NCBI RefSeq assembly: GCF_013694095.1
Contig: NZ_JACEFB010000007.1
Location: forward strand, 1-64,000
Reading direction: 5' to 3'
Origin: Thermogemmata fonticola
Lineage (GTDB): Bacteria > Planctomycetota > Planctomycetia > Gemmatales > Gemmataceae
DNA length: 64,000 nt
Made by a program: the position numbers and the translations under genes. How positions within the stretch are numbered: the stretch's first letter is position 1; each line of letters opens with the position of its first letter. Shown here one piece after another: positions 25,759-28,288 of the stretch. The notes below the pieces were generated by a model that saw nothing but the letters and a program-made list of their open reading frames with translations, had not been told where the DNA came from and made no database searches.

Positions 25759-25923
25759 TTTTCCCGCCCTCCTGCCAGCGCGGAGTATTTCGCCCGCCGG
25801 AGTGGTCAGGGAAGGCGGCGGTAGCAACAATAAAGAAAAAGAAGAAGAGAAGCTGGCCGTCGAGGAGCGGTTCCTCCTGTCCAGAGGGTGTCCCCAGGCG
25901 ATCCCAGGCTAGTAGGTGACGTC

Positions 25924-26724
25924 ATGCTGACAGCAATAGTAGCAGCGGCCCTGAGTTTGGCCCCAGCTCAGGGGGGCGAATTGAAGCTCAGCAATGTACG
26001 TTTCACGGTAGGGGAGATGGGCCCGCCGCGCCCGGAGGCCCGCTTCCTGCCGGGAGACATCGTGTACATTGGCTACGACATCGTGGGCTTGATGATCGAC
26101 ACGGACGGCACCGCCCGCTACCGCATGGCCATGGAGATCAGCGACGCGGCGGGCAAGGTGTACTTCAAGGAGAACCCGCGGGACCTGACCGATTTCGTGC
26201 CGCTGCGGGGGCAGGTGATACCAGCCCGGGCCTTCGTCACCGTTGGATTGGACCAACCGCCGGGGCAGTATCAGTGCAAGGTCACCGTGACGGACACGAC
26301 GACGAAAGCTACGGCGAGCTTCACGGCCCGCTTCGAAGTGCTCAAGCCGGCCTTCGGCATCGTGGCGCTCCATCCGACGTTCGACCCGCAGCGGCAGATT
26401 CCGGCGCCGACCCAGGCCTTCGTCGGCCAGACGCTCTTCATCAACTTCTCGGTCGTCGGCTTTGAACGAGACGGCAAAACCCGCCAGCCGAACACCCTCA
26501 ACGAATACCAGGTGTTCGACGAGAAAGGGCAGCCCTTGCTGGCCAAGGCCATCAGCCAGGTGGTGGATCGCGGCCTGGACCCCAGCGTGCCAATCTACAC
26601 CTTGCAGTTTCCTTTGTTTTTGAATCGGCCCGGACGCTTCAGCGCGCGCATCACCGTCACGGATAAACTCAGCGGCAAAAGCGCCCGTGTCGAACTGCCG
26701 GTGACAGTGCTTCCTGCTCCGTGA
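25924..26724 (+). CDS. Secreted protein with two Ig-like beta domains
   Basis: A 266-residue exported protein: signal MLTAIVAAALSLAPAQG, then two beta-sandwich-like modules, each ending in a pattern like 'GQYQCKVTVTDTTTKATASFTARFEV' (about 115-140) and 'PGRFSARITVTDKLSGKSARVELPVTV' (about 240-262). I know no named family; similar small proteins are common in planctomycete genomes. AGGTGACGTC precedes the ATG. Confidence 0.75.
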   Translation: MLTAIVAAALSLAPAQGGELKLSNVRFTVGEMGPPRPEARFLPGDIVYIGYDIVGLMIDTDGTARYRMAMEISDAAGKVYFKENPRDLTDFVPLRGQVIPARAFVTVGLDQPPGQYQCKVTVTDTTTKATASFTARFEVLKPAFGIVALHPTFDPQRQIPAPTQAFVGQTLFINFSVVGFERDGKTRQPNTLNEYQVFDEKGQPLLAKAISQVVDRGLDPSVPIYTLQFPLFLNRPGRFSARITVTDKLSGKSARVELPVTVLPAP

Positions 26725-26778: not shown

Positions 26779-26854
26779 GCGGAACCCCGAATCCACAAAC
26801 CACGGAAGTGCCAAACCACCGAAACGCGGAACCCCGAATCCACAAACCACGGAA
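26779..26854 (+). repeat. 29-bp exact direct repeat
   Basis: Bases 26779-26807 recur without change at 26826-26854 (starting GCGGAACCCCGAATCC, period 47 bp) in the gap before the TPR-YggX gene. No gene overlaps it. Confidence 0.9.
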
Positions 26855-26915: not shown

Positions 26916-27545
26916 ATGACTCCTGCGGAACGTGCCGAACAGATCGCTCGCTTTCGGGCCATGGCGGAGGGGGACCCCGATGACGACCTGGCCCACTTCC
27001 GCCTCGGCCAAATTTTGATGGAAGACGGGCAATATGCCGAAGCGGCCCGCGCTTTCGAGCGGGTGTTGCAGATCAATCCCCATTTTTCGCGGGTGTATCA
27101 GCATCTGGGGGAATGTCTGGTGCAGCAGGGGCAGAAGGAGCAGGCGGTCGAGGTGTTGCAGCGCGGCTGGCAGGTGGCGCAGGAGCGCGGGGACCGCGTA
27201 CCCAAGGAGGCGATCGAGAAGCTGCTCGTGCAACTGGGGGCGGCCATCCCGCAAGCGAGCCAGGCGGCGGAGGAGGTCGGCGGCCCAGGGGGCTTTCGCT
27301 GCCAGCGGCCCGGCTGCATGGAAGGGAAACGGGCACGCCCGCTACCGGCCCCACCTTTTCCCGATGAACTGGGTCAACGCATCGCCCGCGACATCTGCGC
27401 TGCCTGCTGGAACCTCTGGCACCGCGACCTGAGCATCAAAGTCATCAACGAGCTGCGCCTGGACCTCAGCTCCGAGTTCGGCCAGGCGGAGTATGATAAA
27501 TACATGCGGGACTTCTTCGGCTTCGAGCAGGAATCCCCAGCGTGA
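26916..27545 (+). CDS. TPR protein fused to YggX-like Fe(II)-trafficking domain
   Basis: The N-terminal half (about 20-100) is TPR-like (DDLAHFRLGQILMEDGQYAEAARAFERVLQINPHFSRVYQHLGECLVQQGQ). From about 125 it reads FRCQRPGCMEGKRARPLPAPPFPDELGQRIARDICAACWNLW and ...KVINELRLDLSSEFGQAEYDKYMRDFFGFE. That matches YggX in order and spacing: a Cys near its start, PG/DELGxRI, W..W, INE..L, and the F-L-F end. YggX protects Fe-S proteins and labile iron. Stand-alone YggX is ~90 residues; fusion with TPR is unusual. Its stop overlaps the GTG start of the next gene. Confidence 0.85.
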   Translation: MTPAERAEQIARFRAMAEGDPDDDLAHFRLGQILMEDGQYAEAARAFERVLQINPHFSRVYQHLGECLVQQGQKEQAVEVLQRGWQVAQERGDRVPKEAIEKLLVQLGAAIPQASQAAEEVGGPGGFRCQRPGCMEGKRARPLPAPPFPDELGQRIARDICAACWNLWHRDLSIKVINELRLDLSSEFGQAEYDKYMRDFFGFEQESPA

Positions 27546-28288
27546 CGGCTCCCCACCCATCCCTGGTGCGTTACAGCAAACTCGGCTGGCTCGGCAGCTT
27601 CCCAGCCCCGGAAGCCTACCCGCGGGGCGCAACGGTCCTCCTGCGCACTCCCCGCGGCCTGGAACTGGGAGAAATCCTCGTGCCGGCGCTGGCCACGGGG
27701 ACCGTCCCTTCTGCCCCGCCGCGCACTGCCCCGCCGTTGGGCGGCTCGATTCTGCGCCGGGCCACGCCGGAGGACCTGCACGCCGCCCAGGAGGCGGATC
27801 AGACCGTCCAGCGTCTGCTGCCCCTCTTCGAGGCCGACGCGCCCCCCTGGCTGATCGTCGATGCGGAAGCGACCCTGGACCACTGCTGCATCCTCCACAC
27901 GCTGCCTGCCCCGGCGCAAGTCGAGCGCGATCCCGCCGCCTGGACAGCCGCCTGGCAAGAACAGACCGGCTGGCGCTTCGAGGTGCTGGACCTGGCCCGC
28001 TTTTCTCCCCCGCTGGCTCCCTCGCGCACCGCGGCGCGCCGTCCGGCTCCGGTTTCCACTCCTTCCACCTCCGGTTGTTCCTCCGGCGGTTGCTCCAACG
28101 GTGGCTCCAACGGTTGCTCCAACGGTTGCTCCAACGGTGGCGGTTGTTCCAACGGTTGCTCCAACGGTGGCGGTTGTTCCAACGGTTCCTGCGGACGGGG
28201 AACCCTCTCCACCGAGGAGCTGTACGCCTACTTCGCCCTGCTGCGGGAACACTACCCGGAGCACCTCAGCCGTTATTCCTTGCTGTGA
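27542..28288 (+). CDS. PSP1/RicT-like protein with Cys-Ser-Asn-Gly repeat
   Basis: A 248-residue protein whose residues 25-160 match PSP1/RicT (YaaT) proteins: VLLRTPRGLELGEIL, ILRRATPEDLHAAQEAD, and ..DAEATLDHCCILHTLP... near the C-terminus of the fold. In Bacillus RicT forms a complex with RicA and RicF that binds Fe-S clusters and aids RNase Y. Residues ~177-216 are a repeat of GCSN units with eight Cys, followed by a helical tail. Start is GTG, overlapping the previous stop (GTGA), so the pair is translationally coupled. Annotation as PSP1 rests on pattern, not a search. Confidence 0.75.
   Translation: MTAPHPSLVRYSKLGWLGSFPAPEAYPRGATVLLRTPRGLELGEILVPALATGTVPSAPPRTAPPLGGSILRRATPEDLHAAQEADQTVQRLLPLFEADAPPWLIVDAEATLDHCCILHTLPAPAQVERDPAAWTAAWQEQTGWRFEVLDLARFSPPLAPSRTAARRPAPVSTPSTSGCSSGGCSNGGSNGCSNGCSNGGGCSNGCSNGGGCSNGSCGRGTLSTEELYAYFALLREHYPEHLSRYSLL
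28073..28195 (+). repeat. 12-bp coding repeat GGTTGCTCCAAC
   Basis: Units of 12 bp (GGTTGCTCCAAC, coding Gly-Cys-Ser-Asn) alternate with GGTGGC units within the PSP1-like gene. Both unit lengths are multiples of three, so changes in copy number would keep the frame. Confidence 0.85.

Follow-up and report, generated by a model that had tools for sequence, protein, structure and literature searches.

The window (the whole 64,000-nucleotide stretch of the Thermogemmata fonticola genome analysed here) carries two adjoining genes on the forward strand, ORF A, encoding a TPR-YggX protein, and ORF B, encoding a short, cysteine-tailed PSP1 protein (Table 1). ORF B begins with a GTG codon contained in the GTGA that it shares with the stop codon of ORF A; coordinates, reading frames and overlap all agreed with a preliminary description of this DNA. 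Among 28 Gemmataceae loci, the two genes overlap by 4 nt in 16 and are spaced by 8 nt or less in 23, and the best explanation of the sequences is that ORF A and ORF B are cotranslated. Of 20 Gemmataceae loci, 17 have next to the pair a homologue of the gene that precedes it here, which is itself probably Ig-like and probably secreted. Between this gene and ORF A (window positions 26793-26854), a 15-base sequence, CCACAAACCACGGAA, is directly repeated without mismatch inside a longer repeated stretch; there are two exact copies of it genome-wide, both in this gap. An Rfam search around ORF A and ORF B found no match.

Table 1. Features of the ORF A/ORF B locus in the window, and related loci in other planctomycetes
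Feature	Position	Strand	Remarks
Upstream gene, probably Ig-like, probably secreted	25888..26724	+	Sub-threshold Ig/PKD hits only
TPR-YggX gene (ORF A)	26916..27545	+	209 aa, ATG start; AF2 pLDDT 91.2
TPR region	26916..27245	+	aa 1-110; Pfam TPR families, structural matches
YggX / Iron_traffic domain	27291..27530	+	PF04362, PDB YggX-family chains, four invariant Cys
GTGA stop/start overlap, ORF A/ORF B	27542..27545	+	4 nt; reading frames checked
Cys-tailed short PSP1 gene (ORF B)	27542..28288	+	248 aa, GTG start
PSP1 core	27554..27997	+	aa 5-152; hhalign E=3.9e-32; AF2 confident
Cys-rich tail	28076..28192	+	aa 179-217; CX4C ... CX4C, four further Cys between
12/30-bp tandem repeat encoding the CSNG expansion	28087..28187	+	TRF
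C-terminal helix after the Cys tail, TEELYAYFALLREH	28211..28252	+	Alignment; AF2 helix 224-237
Rieske-PSP1-Cys-tail fusions	L090 1147-1980; L087, L089, L091; L226 4428-5468		
bioB head-to-head loci	L128-L130, L133, L134, L136, L225, L229, L233-L235, L237, L239		

The reading of ORF A as YggX fused to TPR repeats, already made in the preliminary description, held. Pfam places TPR repeats at residues 24-90, and PF04362 matches residues 137-205 (E=6.9e-9) with 35.8 bits, above its cutoff of 27. Since a profile of the YggX half (A3) also matched YggX-family chains in the PDB (2mzy, E=2.5e-9; 1t07, 4.3e-6; 1xs8, 2.9e-4), ORF A is, judged by Pfam and by solved YggX structures, a member of the YggX family. 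It does not have the stand-alone form of ~90 aa, a length that is a usual but not an essential criterion for membership of the YggX domain; it is a TPR fusion with four cysteines (C129, C134, C161 and C164) that are invariant in 40 of 40 aligned relatives. TPR-YggX fusions are common throughout the phylum, with one or four cysteines. The structural matches listed for the model of the fusion were taken up by SycD/PcrH-type and other TPR proteins (Z ~16) and did not reach the YggX half.

Single-sequence searches of Pfam, NCBIfam and the PDB with ORF B found no match, and PF04468 is passed by relatives of ORF B but not by the window protein alone. ORF B does match the canonical PSP1 encoded in the same genome (E=2.6e-6), and hhalign of its family profile against 17 canonical PSP1 proteins gave P 99.9 and E 3.9e-32 over residues 2-186. 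On these comparisons ORF B is a divergent member of the PSP1 superfamily, homologous across the PSP1 core, as had been proposed. The core was modelled confidently by AF2, and the cysteine tail had low pLDDT and is predicted to be disordered. A Foldseek search with the PSP1 model returned no significant match, a repeat structural comparison reached a Z of only ~7, its matches being spread over many alpha-beta domains that included several RNA-binding domains of the KH type, and a profile of canonical PSP1 matched none of the solved structures. Short Cys-tailed PSP1 proteins occur class-wide in Planctomycetia, and the genomes that have them usually encode a canonical PSP1 at another locus as well.

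Conservation of the pair and of the cysteine tail

Conservation of the pair, a point raised in the preliminary description, was plain: the pair is real and is found in nearly every Gemmata-type bacterium that we examined. An ORF B match was present in 75 of 95 genomes of the family (some of these matches being canonical PSP1), and among the best 29 ORF B loci beyond the window's own, TPR-YggX lay immediately upstream in 28, the remaining locus ending at a contig end. An independent scan for the YggX domain in 84,980 species found 59 loci, with a Cys-tailed PSP1 gene directly downstream in 48; two of the remaining eleven run into a contig edge. In a class-wide sample, TPR-YggX was present in 49 Gemmatales genomes and ORF B adjoined it in 43 (coordinates being matched by hand); four of the others have no PSP1 of any kind, and in two (G041 and G510) no adjacent placement was established. 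The fact that TPR-YggX is kept in the PSP1-less genomes G058, G059, G069 and G079 implies that it has a role independent of PSP1 and that the pair is not obligate.

The only invariant ORF B residues in a 40-member alignment are D78, C179, C184, C212 and C217, and the invariance of the tail cysteines in these 40 relatives, together with adjacency at 48 of 59 loci, is far beyond chance. The usual tail has six cysteines (CX4C-X6-CX2C-X5-CX4C), and deeper branches end in CX2C. The CSNG tract of the window has eight, and the nearest relative, from the same genus, has six. The preliminary description had singled out this eight-Cys CSNG repeat. Its eight cysteines and its nature as a true tandem repeat stood, but the repeat is not supported as the key feature: it is a tandem expansion, at the level of this species, of a conserved tail in which six Cys are usual. 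We also considered the tract as mere low-complexity sequence and rejected this, since conservation within the family is highest at its cysteines.

In Bacillus subtilis, RicT holds a [4Fe-4S] cluster through C161, C166, C198 and C203 of the motif CX4CCX30CX4CC (PMC6751060). The first CX4C of the tail (CGKPxC) was aligned by profile on the first CX4C of RicT, an Fe-S ligand pair. The full RicT motif is absent from the window's ORF B and its 39 aligned relatives and is retained in the canonical PSP1 paralogue of the same genome; in ORF B, the second CX4CC of RicT and its C-terminal domain have been replaced. The tail, with its predicted disorder, could also bind Zn or Cu, which we counted against the Fe-S reading.

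RNase Y, Fe-S contexts and a proposed function

The RicT-RNase Y complex of B. subtilis needs the Fe-S clusters of RicT (PMC10470536). RNase Y was found in the genome of the window and in 174 of 198 genomes overall (absent in 24), and PSP1 was absent in 26. Both were missing from 20 genomes and present in 168, with 6 and 4 carrying only one of the two, an association with a Fisher p of 1.6e-18 that ignores relatedness and rests on two combined tables in which unlisted genomes were inferred by elimination and canonical and short PSP1 were pooled. The losses are spread over several families and thus represent more than one event. The canonical paralogue may carry this correlation; genomes of family f4 have a single PSP1, of the canonical type, with RNase Y present. 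The preliminary description had also pointed to RicA/RicF homologues (PF06133), but none was found in the window's own genome and they were missing from 58 of 59 Planctomycetia genomes, with one weak match, and a RicA/RicF partnership for ORF B was rejected on that ground.

Outside Gemmatales, relatives of ORF B occur in other company. In another planctomycete family, members of two genera (g41, and one genome of g357) have a Rieske domain fused to a Cys-tailed PSP1, with both parts recognised by Pfam in one case (Rieske, 2.5e-19; PSP1, 8.4e-11). At 13 loci in families f3, f5, f106, f108 and f109, the short PSP1 gene lies head-to-head with bioB, a neighbourhood found by protein clustering and checked with Pfam at one of the 13 loci. 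A small TPR protein resembling the TPR half of TPR-YggX is encoded near the short PSP1 gene at some loci (L129, 4071-4433; L130; L128, 2159-2488). In another planctomycete class, a NifU_N (SufU-like) gene is followed just downstream by a four-Cys YggX gene (L140, 5012-6928). Among the conserved neighbours of the ORF A/ORF B pair we saw no SUF or ISC gene.

Taken with the tail CX4C placed on RicT Fe-S ligands, the Rieske and bioB contexts are consistent with the metal and Fe-S theme of the preliminary description. Its iron/Fe-S module fared less evenly: a coupled, conserved pair stands, but a closed module is not supported, because TPR-YggX is phylum-wide and survives without PSP1, and PSP1 tracks RNase Y.

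The reading that we favor, tentatively and at somewhat less than an even chance, is that ORF B resembles RicT, probably binds an Fe-S cluster or iron, and is a partner in the RNase Y pathway, cotranslated with an iron-handling protein. ORF B would be a short RicT/PSP1 paralogue that keeps the PSP1 core and the first CX4C pair of RicT, the remainder of the Fe-S loop and the C-terminal domain having been replaced by a compact Gly/Ser-rich tail, usually with six cysteines, which is probably the seat of iron or of a labile Fe-S cluster. ORF B would most likely act on RNA, beside canonical RicT, in mRNA maturation by the RNase Y pathway. TPR-YggX would supply or protect iron for the labile tail site, or signal iron or oxidative status to the tail, its TPR part providing a docking surface for what we infer to be a physical complex with iron passing in that direction. 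The need of the B. subtilis RicT-RNase Y complex for Fe-S clusters makes an iron-supply partner sensible, and the iron source for bacterial Fe-S assembly has been described as unknown (PMC8593673). We consider unlikely the fuller proposal of a second, Fe-S-tuned Planctomycetia RicT with its cluster in the Cys tail, which would let RNase Y-dependent mRNA maturation, in the absence of RicA/RicF, respond to redox state or iron and would be served by a dedicated, cotranslated TPR-YggX in Gemmatales, and by the Rieske fusion (in other genera) or bioB-linked control.

The bioB neighbor in five families, the Rieske fusion and the YggX partner, as well as the YggX gene beside NifU_N in another class, would suit an iron/Fe-S maintenance pair with no role in RNA, in which the Cys-tailed PSP1 carries Fe-S clusters or serves as a scaffold for their repair, with TPR-YggX its iron source and proteins such as BioB and Rieske proteins the clients. 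We regard this as somewhat unlikely, given that PSP1 is lost along with RNase Y (a comparison made with RNase Y only) and that no SUF/ISC gene was seen among the conserved neighbors of the pair. It is distinctly unlikely, in our judgment, that the tail is a Zn/Cu site or thiol buffer and the four-Cys YggX carries structural Zn, the two forming a metal/redox-stress buffer and not an Fe-S system: Gly/Ser-rich Cys tails of variable spacing and the zinc-ribbon-like arrangement of the YggX cysteines would fit, but the first tail CX4C aligns with RicT Fe-S ligands, and the Rieske and bioB contexts of relatives also argue otherwise. That the genes merely share regulation in an operon and have unrelated functions accords with the occurrence of TPR-YggX without PSP1 and with the different neighbors of short PSP1 outside Gemmatales, but is less likely still when adjacency has been kept across an order despite PSP1 relatives being just 25-47% identical to the window's, and when the neighbors elsewhere come repeatedly from Fe-S biology.

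Comparison with RicT, YggX and Rieske proteins

So widespread an overlapping pair hints at a connection of iron with RNA processing that has yet to be characterised. Our literature searches found no paper joining planctomycetes with the PSP1 domain or YggX, and none combining PSP1, YaaT and RNase Y. The pair, the paralogue with its remodelled cluster loop and the natural Rieske fusion offer concrete proteins on which to test why RicT carries Fe-S clusters and where iron is handed on or protected by YggX, and the co-loss of PSP1 and RNase Y carries the association of RicT with RNase Y into a group that lacks RicA/RicF.

ORF B resembles RicT (YaaT) of B. subtilis in its PSP1 core, in a first CX4C that is in register with RicT C161/C166 and in the class-wide co-occurrence of PSP1 (paralogues pooled) with RNase Y. 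It differs from RicT in having a compact Cys tail in place of CX4CCX30CX4CC and the C-terminal domain, in being a second paralogue beside canonical PSP1, and in belonging to a class in which 58 of 59 genomes are without RicA/RicF. ORF A belongs, by Pfam and by solved structures, to the same fold family as YggX, the Fe(2+)-trafficking protein (PF04362) of E. coli and Salmonella, but ORF A is a PSP1-linked TPR fusion with four invariant cysteines, whereas YggX in its classical form stands alone at ~90 aa (91-100 aa in the PDB chains). With Rieske [2Fe-2S] proteins the connection is through relatives: two planctomycete genera join the Rieske domain to the same kind of Cys-tailed PSP1, whereas ORF B itself lacks that domain.
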